Assembly: GCA_029688905.1 (NCBI GenBank)
Contig: JARULB010000005.1
Span: 310,001-374,000, forward strand
DNA: 64,000 nucleotides
Origin: Balneolales bacterium ANBcel1
GTDB taxonomy: Bacteria > Bacteroidota > Rhodothermia > Balneolales > Natronogracilivirgulaceae
Direction of reading: 5' to 3'
The translations under genes and the position numbers were made by a program. The stretch's first letter is position 1, and every line of letters starts with the position of its first letter. The notes below the pieces were generated by a model that ran no database searches, was not told where the DNA came from, and saw nothing but the letters and a program-made list of their open reading frames with translations. Positions 30,173-38,132 of this stretch are shown in pieces.

Positions 30173-30332
30173 ATCCCGGCTGTCGAACCCGAACCCGGTC
30201 GCCCCTCCTGTTTCAGGTCCCCAATGAACTATTTCCTGCGCATGCTCATTGATATTGGTGTACCGTTTACATAAAATCCGGTGCCGCAGCAATCAGAATC
30301 GCGTTTTTTTATCATGGAAAACCCAATTATTT

Positions 30333-31562
30333 ATGAATACCAATAAAGCAGTAGTCCTTCTGGGATGGAGTGCCCAGGCCATTGAAAGTGCACAAAAACT
30401 GGACAAACCCTATGTCGTTGTGAGTTTTGAAGAGTTTGAACCCTATGCGAAGGAAAACGGAATTCCTTTTGTAGCATGGGACTTCAATCAGTGGGGTGAC
30501 CAGTCCAATTCCCTGATATTACGCGAAAAGCTGGCGCCTTTTAACCCGAATGTAGCCATCCCGCTGTACGAGGAAACCGTGGAGTGGGCCGGAGCCCTTA
30601 ATACGTTGTACAGGGATGACCCCAGGGTGATGAACCGTGCGTTCCTGTTTCGAAACAAGGCGATGATGAAGCGCAAGGCCCTGCTCGCCGGACTCCGGGT
30701 CGGACTTTTTGAGGAGGTCCACAACAAGCAGGATGTCCACAAGTTCATGGACCGCCTGAATGAAGCCAATCTGGTACTCAAGGGTGAGGAAGATGCCTGG
30801 GTGCATCTGAAGCCGTTCAGCGCCGCCGGAACCGTCGGACACAAACTGCTGCGCAATCACGATCAGATCGACGAAAAGGTGATCGAAAAAGACTTTCCGT
30901 GTCTGGTCGAGAGCCACCTCCCCGGCCAGGAGTTTTCCTGCGAAGCGTTCATCCACAATGGGAAAATCCGATTTATGAATATTACCGAGTATATTCGCCT
31001 CGGCTATTCCAACTACATTCCCGCCGGACCCGATCTGCAGTCGAAGCGTCCCCAAATTCGCGAGGTGATGCAAAAACTGGTGGATGCATTCGGAATTGAG
31101 TACGGCGTCATCCACCCGGAGTGGTTCCTGACCGAAGACAACACCCTCAGTTTCGGGGAAGTTGCCTGCCGAATTCCCGGAGGGCACATTTTTGAACTCA
31201 TCAGCAAAGCCTACGGTTTCGACGCCATCCAGGCCATGATTCTTTGCAGTGACCCGGACACCACCGAAGAGCAGGTTGAAGCGTTTTTCCCATCCGATGA
31301 AGAACCCGCCCAACAGTACGCCGGAAGCCTGATGGTGTACCCGAAACCCGGCAAAGTCTCCCGCCTGATCATTCCGGAAGAGCTCAAAGAGGATCCCTAT
31401 TTTGAAAACCATACGCTTACCGAACCAATGGAGCACAAAGTATCGGACCAGCGCGAAGGCTTTGGCAATCACTACGGAACCATCTTCTTCCGCGGTGAAG
31501 ATCCCGGACGAATGGCAGAGCTGCTCAGACACTACGAAAATGTCGATTTTTACCAGGGTTGA
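30333..31562 (+). CDS. ATP-grasp ligase (L-amino-acid-ligase/carnosine-synthase-like)
   Basis: 409-residue cytoplasmic enzyme expected to activate a carboxylate as acyl-phosphate and join it to an amine. The start MNTNKAVVLLGW gives the pre-ATP-grasp Rossmann-like domain (1-95). ATP-grasp proper spans ~100-330: FRNKAMMKRKALLAGLRVG, an adenine/phosphate segment around LKPFSAAGTVG, CEAFIHNGK, and the metal site HPEWFLTEDNTLSFGEVACR followed by IPGG (Glu in HPEW and in GEVACR). The C-terminal ~80 residues resemble the cap of amino-acid ligases. Two bases separate its stop from the next ATG, so it is coupled to the 681-residue protein, its likely functional partner. Substrate unknown. Confidence 0.88.
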   Translation: MNTNKAVVLLGWSAQAIESAQKLDKPYVVVSFEEFEPYAKENGIPFVAWDFNQWGDQSNSLILREKLAPFNPNVAIPLYEETVEWAGALNTLYRDDPRVMNRAFLFRNKAMMKRKALLAGLRVGLFEEVHNKQDVHKFMDRLNEANLVLKGEEDAWVHLKPFSAAGTVGHKLLRNHDQIDEKVIEKDFPCLVESHLPGQEFSCEAFIHNGKIRFMNITEYIRLGYSNYIPAGPDLQSKRPQIREVMQKLVDAFGIEYGVIHPEWFLTEDNTLSFGEVACRIPGGHIFELISKAYGFDAIQAMILCSDPDTTEEQVEAFFPSDEEPAQQYAGSLMVYPKPGKVSRLIIPEELKEDPYFENHTLTEPMEHKVSDQREGFGNHYGTIFFRGEDPGRMAELLRHYENVDFYQG

Positions 31563-31564
31563 TT

Positions 31565-33610
31565 ATGGCTGACACAATCGCCGGACACATCCGCCATAAT
31601 TTTATCGAACAACTGGAACAGCTTAAAACCGCCGGAGTGCTTACCCGGCAGGACCAGGCCCGAAAACTGGCCAGCAGCCTCGATGCCATCATGGACAAGG
31701 AAGGAGGCATGGCGCTGATTTACGATCACATCGGCGATATTGTAGAGGCCGGCTTTTTTGATGATACCCAGTGGAAGGATCCCGATGTCCTCAATTATTC
31801 GCTGGTGGGAGGCACCCTTAAAGCGGGTGGGATGAACACCGTTTATGAGGTTCTCAGCGAGTTGCGAATTCTTGCAATAGCTCGGGGTCGCCTGGAAAGT
31901 CCGGCAATGACGGCCGAAGCGGCCCGCCGGTTCCTCGAAGAACTGGTGGTTGTAAATCTCGACCTGCTGTTCCCGGATGCCTCCGAGGAGCTTCGCAATG
32001 TGGATGAGGCCACCCGCAGAAAAATCGAGAATCTGTTTGCCTGGCTGAAACACGATTTCATTCAGTGGGACCGGATCAGCCGGCGGCTGGCAAAAGAGCT
32101 GGAACAGATTTGCAGCCAGAGGCCCATTGTAACCGACCGTGCCAAAAGCATCATCCGAACCGTCAGGGAACAGATGGCGGACCAGATTACAACTGACCGC
32201 ATGACGGCCGGGCCCGGTACGAAACCATCTTCTGAAGACGATGCCGAAGGCCGGGCCAACGGGCTCCCGCTTTATATTGATGCCCTGTACGCCCCGTCGC
32301 CGGAGTCGGTCAACCGAACACCTGAAGAGTACGAAGCACATATTGCGAATGCCCCGGAACAGCTGCTCGGCGAGGAATGCGACGCCCTCTCATTCACCCT
32401 GCGGCAAACCGGGCTTTCATCTGCCTTCCACGCCCTGATGCTCAAACGGGTGAGCGACATGCCGGAACTGATCGGCAGGCTGCTCGGACTAAACGACTAC
32501 GGACTGGCCGAGCTGAAAGAACATCACGCATCCATCACCCGGTTCATCTCCTTCGCATGCCGTCCCGATACCACCCGTTTCGTGTACGGACTTGCCGCCA
32601 TGCTGGAACGCAACCTCCTTTCGCGCCAGCCGGTGATGACCGGCCTGGAAAAACTGACCGATATTTCGCTCCACCCCGATGTTGCCGCCCACATCTCCGC
32701 ATCCCGTCCCGACAGCCGCTGCACGCCGCTTCAGCACCTGTTCGCTGACACCATCTGCATGATGGGTCAGCCGCTCGGAGTAGGCCAGGGCTGGAACCCG
32801 ACCTGCCAGTCGGCGCGCGGCATGAGTCTGTGGAGCCGGCACGCACCCGGCAAACTGCTCGACCTGATTCACACCGCCGCATCTTCCAACGATCTTGAAA
32901 TGCGGTTTGAAGGGCAGCTGCTCAAGGCATCCGAGCTCCCGGAAGGTTTGGCCAAGGACTTCGACTACAACCTTGACGCGGTGTCGATCGCGCTGGTACC
33001 GCACCTCGACCGCATCTATTTCGAGATGATGCGCCGGGCCTCCGGGCGGGGAGAGGATCCCCACAAGTGGGTCAACCCCGCCATGTACGGACAATGGATA
33101 CACACCGGGTTCCGAACTCCCTATAATTACCTGTACAACACCATCAGCCGGTACGACGCTTTTTTGAGACTCTTCTACGCTACCCATCACCCCGAATACA
33201 ACGGCGGACACGATCTCGCCTACCCCAACCCCGTCGGCATTTTTCTGACGGCGGCCAATGGTAAACTGCTCGGCTTCCACGCCGTCTCCCTGCTGCGGGT
33301 TGCGCGGCACGAGGAGGATTACCGGATCTATTTTCTGAATCCCAACAACGAAGGGCGTCAAAAGTGGCAGTCCGACATCCAGCCCACCGTCGCCGGCTAT
33401 GGAGAACAGCCGGGTGAATCGTCTCTGCCCTTCTATCAGTTTGCCTCCCGCCTGTACGCCTTTCACTACAACCCCGCCGACAGTGATGCATCTGACCGGA
33501 TCCCCGCCGAAGAAATTGAGCGGGTCACAAAAATTGCCAAAAACAGCTGGGGCGCTTCCTACACCTGGCAGGATGTGCCCGAGCCCATAGCCTCACCGGG
33601 AATCACGTAG
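31565..33610 (+). CDS. Uncharacterised protein with papain-like Q-C-H-N signature
   Basis: 681 residues, no signal peptide or membrane helix; I do not recognise a named family. The ATG at 31565, with AGGG 7 nt upstream, is two bases after the ATP-grasp stop. Residues 1-330 look helical. From ~395 the sequence shows GQGWNPTCQSARGMSLW: Gln408 lies six residues before Cys414, the spacing of papain Gln19-Cys25. A His follows at 572 in LLGFHAVSLL and an Asn at 592 in YRIYFLNPNNEG, the usual order and rough spacing of a papain-like triad. A cysteine peptidase, amidase or transglutaminase-like activity is inferred. A likely job is to cleave or transfer the amide made by the adjacent ATP-grasp enzyme. 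Confidence 0.8.
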   Translation: MADTIAGHIRHNFIEQLEQLKTAGVLTRQDQARKLASSLDAIMDKEGGMALIYDHIGDIVEAGFFDDTQWKDPDVLNYSLVGGTLKAGGMNTVYEVLSELRILAIARGRLESPAMTAEAARRFLEELVVVNLDLLFPDASEELRNVDEATRRKIENLFAWLKHDFIQWDRISRRLAKELEQICSQRPIVTDRAKSIIRTVREQMADQITTDRMTAGPGTKPSSEDDAEGRANGLPLYIDALYAPSPESVNRTPEEYEAHIANAPEQLLGEECDALSFTLRQTGLSSAFHALMLKRVSDMPELIGRLLGLNDYGLAELKEHHASITRFISFACRPDTTRFVYGLAAMLERNLLSRQPVMTGLEKLTDISLHPDVAAHISASRPDSRCTPLQHLFADTICMMGQPLGVGQGWNPTCQSARGMSLWSRHAPGKLLDLIHTAASSNDLEMRFEGQLLKASELPEGLAKDFDYNLDAVSIALVPHLDRIYFEMMRRASGRGEDPHKWVNPAMYGQWIHTGFRTPYNYLYNTISRYDAFLRLFYATHHPEYNGGHDLAYPNPVGIFLTAANGKLLGFHAVSLLRVARHEEDYRIYFLNPNNEGRQKWQSDIQPTVAGYGEQPGESSLPFYQFASRLYAFHYNPADSDASDRIPAEEIERVTKIAKNSWGASYTWQDVPEPIASPGIT

Positions 33611-33811: not shown

Positions 33812-34972
33812 ATGGTCAAACACTCTTCCCGCATATTTCTGAGCCAGTCGGCCCTCAAGCAGAACTTCAGCTTTATCAGGGAGAAAATCGGTCCGCATCC
33901 GGTGATATCATCTGTGGTGAAGGCAAACGCATTCGGCCACGGAATAGCCACCTTCGTGCCGATGGCCGAAAAATGCGGCATCCGACACTTTTCGGTGGCT
34001 TCCAGCTACGAGGCCTGGAAAGTCCGCGAGGCGCTCACCCACGACGAAAGCCGGATCATGATCATGGGCATCCTCTATCCCGAAGATTTGCCGTGGGTCA
34101 TCGAAAACGGGGTGGAGTTTTTTGTCTTTGATTTCGAGCAGCTGGAGAATGCCCGGGCTGCCGCAGAAGAGGTGGGCAGGCAAGCCGTCATCCATTTGGA
34201 GCTGGAGACCGGAGGAAACCGCACCGGTCTGCCACCCGAAGAACTCGAACAGGCAATTCGATTTCTCAAAAAACACAAGAAGCTGCTGCGGTTTGAAGGC
34301 CTTTGTACGCACTTTGCCGGCATTGAATCGCTGGCCAATCAATTCCGGATTCAGCGGCAACTCAAAACATTCAACGACATGTACAAGCAGGTTCGGCGAA
34401 TGCGATACCTGCCCAACATCCGGCATACCGCCTGCTCGGCGGCCGCGCTGGCCTTTCCGGAGACGGTGATGGACCTGGTCAGGGTCGGCACCGCCCAGTT
34501 CGGCCTGTGGCCCAGTCCGGATATCTACAACATGCATCTGCTGCAGACCGGCAAGGTGAAGGACACCCCCCTGAAACGGGTAATGACCTGGAAAACCGAC
34601 GTCATGCACGTGAAAAAAGTGAAGCGTGATCAGTTCGTAGGGTACGGAACCAGTTATCAGGCACCCAGGGATATGACGATCGCCGTGATCCCAATCGGTT
34701 ACTCAAACGGCTATCCCAAGGCGTTATCGAACCGCGGGCACGTGCTCATCCACGGAAAAAAAGCACCGGTAACCGGCCTTATAAACATGAATGTGTTTAT
34801 GGTGGATGTCAGTCAAATTCCGGATGTGGCTGTCGGGGATGATGTTATTCTGATCGGCAAGCAGAAAAACAACTCCATAACCATCAAGTCTTTTACAGAG
34901 ATCACCGATTCCATCAACAATGAACTGGTGAGTCGGCTTCCTACCGCGATCCCCCGCAGAACGGTCAGGTAA
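33812..34972 (+). CDS. alr: Alanine-racemase-like PLP enzyme with atypical active site
   Basis: 386-residue fold-type III PLP enzyme. PLP-binding Lys37 in SVVKANAFGHG and catalytic Tyr278 in VGYGTSYQ are present, as are the Arg in ETGGNRTGL (Arg137) and RVGTAQFGLWP. Two usual positions differ. The Lys that is carbamylated in typical alanine racemases (HLKxDTGxxR) is Glu130 (HLELETGGNR), and the conserved CMD near the end is NMN (325-327). Both ring sites for racemisation remain, so it is probably active, but a substrate other than alanine is plausible. It follows the ATP-grasp/papain-like pair with a 201-bp gap on the same strand and faces the amidoligase operon. Confidence 0.9.
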   Translation: MVKHSSRIFLSQSALKQNFSFIREKIGPHPVISSVVKANAFGHGIATFVPMAEKCGIRHFSVASSYEAWKVREALTHDESRIMIMGILYPEDLPWVIENGVEFFVFDFEQLENARAAAEEVGRQAVIHLELETGGNRTGLPPEELEQAIRFLKKHKKLLRFEGLCTHFAGIESLANQFRIQRQLKTFNDMYKQVRRMRYLPNIRHTACSAAALAFPETVMDLVRVGTAQFGLWPSPDIYNMHLLQTGKVKDTPLKRVMTWKTDVMHVKKVKRDQFVGYGTSYQAPRDMTIAVIPIGYSNGYPKALSNRGHVLIHGKKAPVTGLINMNVFMVDVSQIPDVAVGDDVILIGKQKNNSITIKSFTEITDSINNELVSRLPTAIPRRTVR

Positions 34973-35080: not shown

Positions 35081-36580
35081 TCACGTGTTTTTTGCAAAGT
35101 ATTCAGCAACCCCGGCCCAGTCGGGCCAACTGCCCGCCGGTTCGGCGGGTTTTTCGACAATTTGTGCGGCGCCGTACCAGCCCATCCACTCTTGCCTGAC
35201 CGATTCATCGAGGTGGTCGACCCGGAAGTCCGCTCCACCGCTTCCGGAAGCTACCGTCACCATCACCGAGCAGAGTTGTTTCCTGCGCTGGAACCAGTTG
35301 GCCAGAACCGACAGCGACTGTACTCGGCGCCGATGGAACACCACGGTTGTCCGCGCCAGACGGCGAAACCGCATGAACCCCTGCTCCCGGTCAAATCCTG
35401 CCGCGGCATCCCGGTAGCGGATGTAGCCAATCAGAGCCGTTACGGCAAAGATTACGGGTATCAGCCAGAATAGCGAAAAATACCACGCCACCGCCGATGC
35501 CACTATCAGCGCCGGCACCACCGTTTTTATCTGATACCGCAGGAATGCGCGCCCCGGTGGCCGGACCCCCGGCAGCTGCACATCATACTCCGGCAGCATG
35601 TCCTGCATAAAACGATTCAGCTCGGACTTCCGGATCAGCGGAAATATAACCGTCGTCTTCCCGCCTTCATCCCCGAAACCCGCGTTTTCCACATATACCA
35701 TGGCATACCCGAACGGCTGACGCAAAATACCCTCGACTACGCGTACCGCCTGAATTCTGTGATAGGGTATGGTGACCTGCTTTTTTTCAAACAGGCCGCG
35801 CCGGAACTGCAGCTCCCGGCCATTGCGGGTAAGCGTAAATCCGGAAAATCGCAGGAGTGTGCCAAATACGGAGAGCAGCCATGCGGCCAGCACTGCCAAT
35901 AATACGAGTGTGATCCAGAATTCGGCACTGGTGCCACCGGCATACTGTTCAATAAAAGCGATCATCTGATCCTCTGAAATCACCTGATGGGCCTGTGACA
36001 TCGCGGTGCCCACAATCGAAAGTGCCACACCGAAGCTTCCGGCGGTACTTGCCGCAATTAGCAGTCGCCGGCGCGTGAGCCGGTAAACGGGCCATTCGGC
36101 CTCCCCGGATGCGGCTTCCACATCCCGTGCCTCGACCTCCAGCGCCCGCTCAATGGCCCGGGCTTCACTGCGGGAAATGGCGCTGATTTCGGCCTCGGGC
36201 GCAGCTCCCCCGGCGGTGAGCACATTCAGGCGAACCAGGCCGAACAGCCGCTGAACCGGTCCGGAGCTGATGTCGATGGCCTGAATCCGGTCACGGGGCA
36301 CATAGCGTTTTTTTCGCACAAAAAGTCCCTGTTCCACACGCAACTCATTCTCCTCGACACGCCAGGTAAACCGAAGCCATCCGACAAAACCGACAATCAG
36401 CAAAACGGTGAGCAGCAGCAGTATGCTCCACCAGGTGAACAGCGGCGAATTGCCTCCCTGTCCGGCAAAAAACACCAGGATTATCGGGATGATCATTTCG
36501 CGCAGGGATCTCATCACAAACGTGAAGATGGCCACCGGATGCTGACGCCTGGGTTTGCTGATATCAAGCCCGGTTATCAC
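35081..36580 (-). CDS. Bacterial PH-domain (bPH2) membrane protein, YdbT-like
   Basis: 499-residue inner-membrane protein with three bPH2 units, each next to a pair of membrane helices: unit 1 (LRVEQGLFVRKKRYVPRDRI), unit 2 (LQFRRGLFEKKQVTIPYHRI) and a weaker unit 3 (FRRLARTTVVFHRRRVQSLS). This is the YdbT plan. YdbS/YdbT pairs occur widely; their molecular role is not settled, with cell-envelope functions and antimicrobial peptide resistance suggested. The start overlaps the YdbS-like stop by 4 bp. It is the last gene of the amidoligase, C26, YdbS, YdbT operon and converges on the alr gene, 108 bp apart. Confidence 0.9.
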   Translation of the reverse strand: MITGLDISKPRRQHPVAIFTFVMRSLREMIIPIILVFFAGQGGNSPLFTWWSILLLLTVLLIVGFVGWLRFTWRVEENELRVEQGLFVRKKRYVPRDRIQAIDISSGPVQRLFGLVRLNVLTAGGAAPEAEISAISRSEARAIERALEVEARDVEAASGEAEWPVYRLTRRRLLIAASTAGSFGVALSIVGTAMSQAHQVISEDQMIAFIEQYAGGTSAEFWITLVLLAVLAAWLLSVFGTLLRFSGFTLTRNGRELQFRRGLFEKKQVTIPYHRIQAVRVVEGILRQPFGYAMVYVENAGFGDEGGKTTVIFPLIRKSELNRFMQDMLPEYDVQLPGVRPPGRAFLRYQIKTVVPALIVASAVAWYFSLFWLIPVIFAVTALIGYIRYRDAAAGFDREQGFMRFRRLARTTVVFHRRRVQSLSVLANWFQRRKQLCSVMVTVASGSGGADFRVDHLDESVRQEWMGWYGAAQIVEKPAEPAGSWPDWAGVAEYFAKNT

Positions 36581-37296
36581 AAATCCTCCCTTGCCACCCT
36601 GGCATATTCCGAAATGGTATTCCGCAGGTTGTCGGCAATCGGTTCGGAAAGTGCCGGTATTTCATGGGTATCGCCGGCGGTGGTAATCGTTACGGAAGCC
36701 AGTCCGAATTGCCGGTAGACCGGACCCTGGCGGGTGTCCACGTGCTGGACCCGCTTGATGGGAATCAGGGTGCGGGTGACGATGAAGAGTCCGCGCTGAA
36801 GATCGATTTCATTATGATCCACCTGGTAGCGCCACCGTTTCCACCGGATGTACGGGATGATGGTCGCCTCAAGAACCGTATAGACAAAAAACAGAATTCC
36901 CAGCACATAAGAGGGCCACACCGGCCATCCCGTGTCGGCCATCGCAATGGCTCCGTACCCCAGCGGAATGAGCCAGTAGGCAAGTGAGCCAAGGGATCCT
37001 GCGATACGCCAGGCATTAATCGCCTCCCTCGAAAGATAAAGGCGACCCTGTTCGTCGCGCAGTTCCGGCTCCGGCACCGCGGGCGGCATAGTGCCGGGCT
37101 TCACTTCAGGTTCGGATTCGCGTTCTGGCTTGGGTTCGGATTCTGTTCCCGCTCCCGCCTCATTTGGTCCGCCTGCATTCCGCGTTTCCGGCGGCCCGGA
37201 CTGATCTGCCAATGGAGGCTGCGGGCGCTCCGAATCCCCGGAACCTTTAGGATTTGTGGAAAACCGATGCCCCTCGCTATTCATATGATCATTCAT
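36577..37296 (-). CDS. Bacterial PH-domain (bPH2) membrane protein, YdbS-like
   Basis: 239 residues. Residues 1-85 are a Pro/Glu/Ser-rich, probably disordered cytoplasmic tail with repeated acidic motifs (ESEPKPERESEPEVKPG), much longer than in ordinary YdbS. Two membrane helices (SLAYWLIPLGYGAIAM; YVLGILFFVYTVLEATIIPY) are followed by one bPH2 domain (IDLQRGLFIVTRTLIPIKRV, VDTRQGPVYRQFGLASVTIT). It overlaps both neighbours by 4 bp (C26 upstream, YdbT-like downstream), so all three are translationally coupled and a YdbS-YdbT complex is likely. Confidence 0.9.
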   Translation of the reverse strand: MNDHMNSEGHRFSTNPKGSGDSERPQPPLADQSGPPETRNAGGPNEAGAGTESEPKPERESEPEVKPGTMPPAVPEPELRDEQGRLYLSREAINAWRIAGSLGSLAYWLIPLGYGAIAMADTGWPVWPSYVLGILFFVYTVLEATIIPYIRWKRWRYQVDHNEIDLQRGLFIVTRTLIPIKRVQHVDTRQGPVYRQFGLASVTITTAGDTHEIPALSEPIADNLRNTISEYARVAREDL

Positions 37297-38132
37297 GTAT
37301 CATTTCCTGCCGGTGTTCGATCGCTGTTATCACGGTGCAAAATAGCACTTTGAACCAGCTCATCAAACAACCGCCTTTGTGACGGAACCTGCGGAAGGTA
37401 TTCGGGATGCCACTGCACGCCGATCATAAAGGGATAGGTGCGGTGCTCCACGGCCTGCGCCACGCCATCAAGTTCGCGAGCAACTACGTGAATTCCCTCT
37501 CCCGGCTGCTTGACCGCCTGGTTATGGAGGCTGTTGACTCTGGTGACATCCTTGCCGATGATGGCATGCAGCCGGCTTTCGGGATCCAGTGTTACCGGTT
37601 TTCGGGGGTAGATGGTGGAGACATTGGGACGTTCGCGATAGTAATTGGCCAGATCCTGATACAATGTCCCTTTGTGGTAGACATTCAAAAGCTGGGCTCC
37701 CCGGCAAATCCCCAAAATCGGTATCTGTTTCTGCACCGCCATGTCGATAAGTTTCCATTCAAGGTCATCGCGCTGCTTGTCAACACCCAGTGCACCGGCG
37801 CTGAACGCCTTGCGGACGAGCAGAAAAAACGGTGCCAGGATCAGGGTGATCCAGCGTTGCCCTTTGGGCTCGTTGGGATCCGGTGTGGTACGAATATTCT
37901 TGAGATCCGTGACCAGGTCTTCATACCGGCCCGGATCGATATCGGCGCCGCCGCCCAATACAAGCGCGTGAGGATGGCCGCCCGGGGTTCGGCTGCGCAC
38001 TTTCTCAAAAGAGCGGGGTGTAATACGTCTGGCTCGTGCGCCGCTTCTGCGCAGGGCGTAACGTGTCGCCAGCCAGGCGGCGCCCCCTCCCTTATCGGGT
38101 CCGGAAACCCACACTATCGGTTTTCGACTCAT
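37293..38132 (-). CDS. Peptidase C26 / class I glutamine amidotransferase-like gamma-glutamyl hydrolase
   Basis: 279-residue cytoplasmic hydrolase of the PuuD/gamma-glutamyl-GABA hydrolase type. Nucleophile Cys143 in ILGICRGAQLLN; His242 and Glu244 in IGVQWHPEYLP complete the triad; HALVLGGGADIDPGRY and VNSLHNQAVKQPGEG are family landmarks. Such enzymes cut gamma-glutamyl amides. A ~30-residue insert (WITLILAPFFLLVRKAFSAG, 94-113) is unusually hydrophobic and may touch the membrane. The gene follows the amidoligase by 77 bp and overlaps the YdbS-like gene by 4 bp. Pairing of amidoligase with such hydrolases has been described for predicted peptide or cell-wall modification systems, where one makes and the other removes an amide. 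Confidence 0.93.
   Translation of the reverse strand: MSRKPIVWVSGPDKGGGAAWLATRYALRRSGARARRITPRSFEKVRSRTPGGHPHALVLGGGADIDPGRYEDLVTDLKNIRTTPDPNEPKGQRWITLILAPFFLLVRKAFSAGALGVDKQRDDLEWKLIDMAVQKQIPILGICRGAQLLNVYHKGTLYQDLANYYRERPNVSTIYPRKPVTLDPESRLHAIIGKDVTRVNSLHNQAVKQPGEGIHVVARELDGVAQAVEHRTYPFMIGVQWHPEYLPQVPSQRRLFDELVQSAILHRDNSDRTPAGNDT

Follow-up and report, generated by a model that had tools for sequence, protein, structure and literature searches.

In a 64,000-nucleotide stretch of the genome of Balneolales bacterium ANBcel1 (hereafter the window), two neighbouring genes on the forward strand, which we call gene A (30333–31562, 409 amino acids) and gene B (31565–33610, 681 amino acids), form an obligate two-enzyme pair: in the genomes tested, one is never found without the other. 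Gene A encodes an ATP-grasp protein whose nearest relatives are L-amino acid ligases, and gene B encodes a protein with a helical N-terminal half and a predicted papain-fold C-terminal domain. We tentatively propose, with slightly less than even confidence, that A and B are the obligate core of a pathway that is independent of nonribosomal peptide synthetases and leads to a small peptide-type metabolite, in which A would carry out ligation and B would carry out acyl transfer.

To define the distribution of the pair, GTDB contigs were scanned with a three-sequence profile of B, which gave at least 582 confirmed relatives. The best 80 of these were examined and, together with a Halomonas locus, the G104 locus and the window, make up a set of 83 loci that spans Balneolota, Rhodothermota, Bacteroidota, Gemmatimonadota, Bacillota and one gammaproteobacterium (Halomonas); a metagenome-assembled genome (MAG) labelled Rickettsiales groups with the Bacteroidota and is probably misbinned. 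Gene A lies directly upstream of gene B in 79 of the 83 loci, with identities of about 33–68% for B and 46–89% for A. The four exceptions are two contigs that start at B and two lone B paralogues in genomes that hold a regular A–B pair elsewhere. In a second, partly overlapping locus set, A adjoins B in 33 of 34 cases, and at the odd locus (G561), where the primary B is unlinked, A is found on another contig. A and B are separate genes in all loci examined, with no fusion, and since the same two-gene order recurs across distant loci, both can be taken as real genes.

The two genes also occur in the same genomes. Across 249 genomes of the Halobacillus order, the A orthologue and B are present in an identical 36, and A is absent from all 213 others. 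Among 198 sampled genomes of the window's own phylum, B occurs in two, and only those two have an A orthologue at more than 70% identity; beyond them the strongest further match to A has 28% identity, and none of the matches listed exceeds 34%. The distance matrices of A and B correlate with a Mantel r of 0.82 (permutation maximum 0.12), a value to which shared ancestry contributes. A preliminary description of this DNA had placed the two genes 2 bp apart and considered their products coupled. The coordinates are confirmed, with the TGA of gene A ending at 31562 and the ATG of gene B at 31565, and the adjacency of homologues on which that description rested its link is nearly universal. The coupling is thus upheld as adjacency and co-occurrence, at a strength far beyond what could be claimed from one locus, while the fixed stoichiometry that was attached to it is not.

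In the B tree, the Gemmatimonadota copies (L042–L049) fall among those of Balneolota, and the racemase-like gene described below is missing beside them, which suggests transfer between phyla, probably within soda-lake communities. A viral or phage origin was considered and set aside, with no relatives in IMG/VR or phage records, as was a role in anti-phage defence, for which PADLOC gave no match. The A–B pair is not described in the literature we searched, a search that most subscription journals lay outside.

The predicted ligase and its papain-fold partner

In accordance with the preliminary assignment of gene A as an ATP-grasp ligase, the protein passes the Pfam ATP-grasp_4 model (32.2 bits, gathering score 27). 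A Foldseek search with its AlphaFold model (predicted local distance difference test score, pLDDT, 89.8) found RizA (4wd3; E 3.8e-24, template modelling score 0.68–0.71) as well as BL00235 (3vot) and BacD (3vmm), and profiles of gene A homologues retrieve the same three L-amino acid ligases. These enzymes resemble A in the ATP-grasp fold, in a glutamate pair with an arginine, and in a length of ∼400 amino acids. Glu263, Glu276 and Arg280 of gene A (31119–31172), the predicted metal/phosphate site, are kept in 37 of 37 homologues and align with their counterparts in 4wd3 and 3vot, which we take to be metal-site residues in RizA and BL00235. Since the fold is nearest to dipeptide ligases and the glutamate pair and arginine are invariant, gene A most likely encodes an ATP-dependent enzyme that joins the carboxylate of an amino acid to an amine. 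It differs from the known ligases in sharing only 15–18% identity with them, and it scores 11.3 bits against the BacD equivalog NF053745 (cut-off 850), far below what a BacD equivalog would reach. To our knowledge, the L-amino acid ligases work without an obligate papain-fold partner.

Gene B has no sequence match in Pfam, NCBIfam, PHROGs, PADLOC or the PDB; the preliminary description could not place it in a family. In the family listing for 61 homologues, no papain-type Pfam entry (calpain C2, CHAP, NlpC/P60, C39, BtrH_N or phytochelatin synthase) exceeds its cut-off. The AlphaFold model built from 61 homologues (pLDDT 88.7, predicted template modelling score 0.88) divides the protein into two parts. 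Residues 1–373 (31565–32683) are all-helical by DSSP, and their structural matches are only generic HEAT/ARM-type helical repeats. Residues 374–636 (32684–33472) align in VIA-align with the protease cores of calpains, where 204 residues superpose at a Z of up to 7.1 (root-mean-square deviation 4.6), with staphopain (Z 6.4) and, at lower scores, a type VI secretion system effector domain and a Parabacteroides cysteine protease. Taken alone these Z values are middling, and the structural matches over this region are papain-fold entries. Although calpains give the best of them, we do not regard B as a calpain, as it has no Peptidase_C2 match and a Z of 7 is middling.

The papain assignment gains its weight from the pattern of conserved residues that backs the middling Z values. 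Gln408, which would contribute to the oxyanion hole, and the predicted nucleophile Cys414 (both in GQGxNPTCQSAR, 32786–32806), together with Asn411 and the predicted triad members His572 and Asn592 (HAV...NPN, 33278–33340), are invariant in 105 of 105 homologues. Gln408 stands six residues before Cys414, His572 is followed by Ala and Asn592 by Pro, an order and spacing that are presumably those of Gln19, Cys25, His159 and Asn175 in papain. Many further polar residues (D498, H500, N504, H542, E614 and H634) are invariant in the same homologues, as expected if B is an enzyme with a specific substrate. On the basis of the model and the alignment, the assignment of the C-terminal part of B as a papain-type cysteine enzyme with a predicted Cys/His/Asn triad holds, in agreement with the papain-like character proposed earlier and with the cysteine-enzyme fold on which that proposal depended. 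A large family, found in at least 582 GTDB stretches and lacking a Pfam or NCBIfam entry, gains in this way a fold, a predicted active site, an obligate partner and testable chemistry.

Additional copies of B occur in some genomes. Shorter second copies (∼610–630 amino acids) stand in tandem 3′ of the A–B pair at L104:13725-15560, L112:12038-13927, L178, L181 and L225, in the clade that carries a divergent GNAT gene. Lone B paralogues without A occur in Alkalihalobacillus-type genomes (L111, L113 and L222–L224), divergent to an M20-type dipeptidase gene that recurs across those loci, and these genomes also hold a regular A–B pair. Both the tandem copies L104, L112, L178 and L181 and the lone copies L111 and L113, which are among the 105 homologues, keep the Gln, Cys, His and Asn. 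A tie between the lone paralogue and a thiolase/acyl-CoA operon, suggested by L111 and L113, was considered and dropped, since none of these genes were found in L220–L223 and they lie more than 4 kb away in L224. The B gene of Halomonas sp. PA16-9 (L004:7971-10055) is apparently frameshifted near its 3′ end, in a 1.8-Mb record that is almost unannotated.

Clade-specific neighbours

The preliminary description covered A and B only, and missed the helical half of B, a racemase-like gene downstream of it and the acetyltransferase genes found beside the pair in particular clades. The racemase-like gene of the window (33812–34972, forward strand, 386 amino acids) encodes an alanine-racemase-fold, pyridoxal phosphate (PLP)-dependent enzyme that matches PF01168 and PF00842 and passes the TIGR00492 cut-off. 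Such a gene lies 3′ of B in Balneolota and Bacteroidota, where its 36 occurrences make up one side of a branch in the 105-protein B tree, and in many Bacteroidota loci the two genes share 7 nucleotides, the racemase gene starting before B ends. It is not a general part of the system, as the alanine racemases of carriers in Gemmatimonadota and Bacillota are all distant ones (28–34%).

In Bacillus alanine racemase, Tyr354 sits beside the phosphate of PLP and is regarded as the residue that sets specificity for alanine, and the residue at that position is Asn in the VanT serine racemase, Thr in lysine racemase and Ala in a broad-specificity racemase (PMC3485190). The PLP lysine (K37) is invariant in the racemase-like enzymes linked to the pair, and an alignment to VanTG (4ecl) puts Asn370 of the window protein at the Tyr354 position. 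Across 22 linked racemases aligned, this residue is Asn in 19, Gln or Ala in the remainder and never Tyr. Among 29 further racemase sequences, the two that are linked (L186 and L187) have Asn, and the remaining 27, from carrier genomes, have Tyr in 26 cases and Asp in one; both of the own-genome paralogues checked carry Tyr. Because the specificity tyrosine is replaced, the linked racemase is probably not alanine-specific and, judging from the alignments, probably not an alanine racemase in function. It is also an extra enzyme, since the genome of the window has four more genes with a racemase N-terminal domain. The likeness to VanT and VanTG extends to the alanine-racemase fold as well as the asparagine, and by that likeness serine may be its substrate, though the window protein differs from them in having no membrane domain.

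One own-genome paralogue (L117, C4:295881-296549) has the NMN motif of the linked racemase with the Tyr kept and adjoins an M20-type amidohydrolase gene; relatives of it are found in the Cyclobacterium and Imperialibacter carriers (L204 and L205). Genes of arginine biosynthesis (argC, argD-like and others, named by eye) are neighbours of A–B–racemase in Cyclobacterium as well as in three unrelated MAGs (loci L052, L057, L060, L061, L064, L065, L105, L051, L071 and L081), which is a possible hint at the substrate.

Acetyltransferase genes mark two Bacillota clades. An AblB-type gene adjoins the pair in 11 loci that form one clade of the same B tree, and two of these neighbours, the ones scanned, score above the cut-off of the model for beta-lysine acetyltransferase (TIGR03827). 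A second GNAT type stands beside the pair in seven cases, which form one side of a branch in another Bacillota clade. What the pair has in common with the AblA/AblB pathway to N-epsilon-acetyl-beta-lysine is this AblB-family neighbour in one clade; neither A nor B is a known member of that pathway, and no AblB gene lies beside the pair of the window. In Oceanobacillus senegalensis, a second ectoine synthase (EctC) gene (L092:11987-12373) lies 51 bp 3′ of B, with an AblB gene 5′ of A, and is distinct from the genome's other EctC gene.

Proposed pathway and its alternatives

In the pathway that we propose, A would use ATP to activate the carboxylate of one amino acid as an acyl phosphate and join it to the amine of another. 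Cys414 of B would then accept the acyl part of the product of A, or that of a related donor, and hand it on to a second amine acceptor, so that B would act as a papain-fold transacylase or transpeptidase. In Balneolota and Bacteroidota the racemase, presumably of relaxed specificity, may supply a D-amino acid, with serine as one candidate, and in particular Bacillota clades the AblB-type acetyltransferase or the other GNAT could tailor or cap the building blocks. Should soda-lake, marine and saline bacteria from five phyla all have such a new metabolite, a common small molecule would so far have gone unseen, and B would join the few known papain-type acyl transferases. The wider proposal, in which a widespread and undescribed class of peptide metabolites, common to saline and alkaline bacteria of five phyla, is made by a ligase with new papain-fold transacylases and contains a D-residue in Bacteroidota and Balneolota, is one we regard as conceivable and on the doubtful side.

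Two known systems show that an ATP-dependent ligase and a papain-fold enzyme can share one pathway. In the load-and-transfer chemistry of butirosin, BtrJ is the ATP-grasp loader. BtrH is the papain-fold acyltransferase of the same small-molecule pathway (PMC10318531, PMC2922099). The A–B pair differs from BtrJ/BtrH in that the BtrH_N domain is not found in B and no acyl carrier protein gene was noticed beside the pair among open reading frames of at least 80 amino acids. Iyer and Aravind predicted ATP-grasp/papain-like pathways to peptide-derived metabolites from conserved neighbourhoods (PMC2922099; Mol Biosyst 2009 cited in PMC10318531); the predicted neighbourhoods compared here have other core genes, AAtRS (aminoacyl-tRNA synthetase)-like and cupin. 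The second precedent, glutathionylspermidine synthetase/amidase (GspSA), makes and cuts its product (PMC6272389, PMC10318531), and, like trypanothione synthetase, resembles the pair in combining an ATP-dependent amide synthetase with a papain-fold cysteine enzyme.

GspSA is also the model for one alternative to our proposal, in which A makes an amide-linked metabolite, B hydrolyses it, and the pair sets its level as the Escherichia coli enzyme does. We consider this rather unlikely, though the obligate pairing is in its favour, the fusion of synthetase and papain-fold amidase in GspSA gives it a parallel (PMC6272389, PMC10318531), and the M20-type dipeptidase gene beside the lone B paralogue (L111, L113 and L222–L224) hints at peptide turnover. 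GspSA is a single fused protein with a CHAP amidase, whereas A and B are two genes for which the loci examined never show a fusion; B matches neither CHAP nor calpain nor another papain-family Pfam entry, GspSA has nothing that corresponds to the large helical N-terminal half of B, and A belongs to another synthetase family. Transfer is preferred over hydrolysis on balance only, because of the many invariant polar residues, the extra copies of B that accompany a single A, and the presence of tailoring genes. Several points weigh against the acyl-transfer pathway: hydrolysis is no less compatible with a papain fold than transfer is, the helical repeats of B could bind proteins rather than metabolites, the racemase and acetyltransferases are clade-specific and may be tailoring enzymes or unrelated passengers, and among the open reading frames surveyed beside the pair (at least 80 amino acids) no gene for a transporter, a carrier protein or a precursor peptide is conserved. 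Of the preliminary idea of a ligase with a papain-like partner in a peptide pathway, the anatomy is supported; an amidase or transferase activity of B and a peptide or peptide tag as product are predictions.

The helical half of B raises a further alternative, in which the substrate is a protein: A would attach to it an amino acid or a short tag, which B, binding the protein through its repeats, would remove or transfer. HEAT/ARM-type repeats bind proteins and are all that this half matches, and the calpain cores closest to the papain domain cut proteins. We nevertheless find this alternative improbable, as A is most like ligases that join amino acid to amino acid, no conserved target protein gene lies beside the pair, and a free-amino-acid racemase and an AblB acetyltransferase fit small molecules better. 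That the adjacency is fortuitous, or that A and B are two unrelated housekeeping genes, is hardly credible: flanking genes past the third gene do vary between phyla, yet the identical 36-of-249 distribution and the adjacency across five phyla speak against chance, and the patchy presence (two of 198 genomes in the window's own phylum) speaks against housekeeping.

A different question is what the product would be for. It could serve bacteria of saline and alkaline habitats as a peptide-type osmolyte, a role compatible with either transfer or cutting by B, and one that we consider somewhat unlikely. By our interpretation, the titles of carrier records point mostly to soda lakes, the Great Salt Lake, the sea and salterns, though this habitat picture is drawn from the 80 top-ranked loci out of at least 582. 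In one clade the pair adjoins AblB, which acetylates beta-lysine in a pathway to an osmolyte, and the EctC gene stands directly 3′ of B in Oceanobacillus senegalensis. Against this, 12 of the 36 carriers have EctC, as do 61 of the 213 non-carriers, and co-occurrence thus gives no association of the pair with ectoine synthase. A riboswitch link to osmotic signalling was likewise rejected: neither a cyclic di-AMP riboswitch nor another from Rfam was found at the operon in six Bacillota loci and the window, the only hits being purine riboswitches of other genes, with nothing in the window.

Surroundings of the locus

A promoter-like site (TTGATA-17-TAAAAT, 10 of 12 consensus positions; 30249–30277, forward strand) lies 56 bp 5′ of gene A. 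It is a weak candidate, as the region contains six such sites where 3.5 are expected by chance. The CCAGGG just 5′ of the gene B start could be a ribosome site. Farther out, AsmA-like, DUF502 and DUF302 genes lie upstream. Downstream are three tightly packed genes on the reverse strand (35081–38132), of which two encode bacterial PH-domain proteins and one a Peptidase_C26/glutamine-amidotransferase protein. These outer genes are not conserved near A–B in other carriers.

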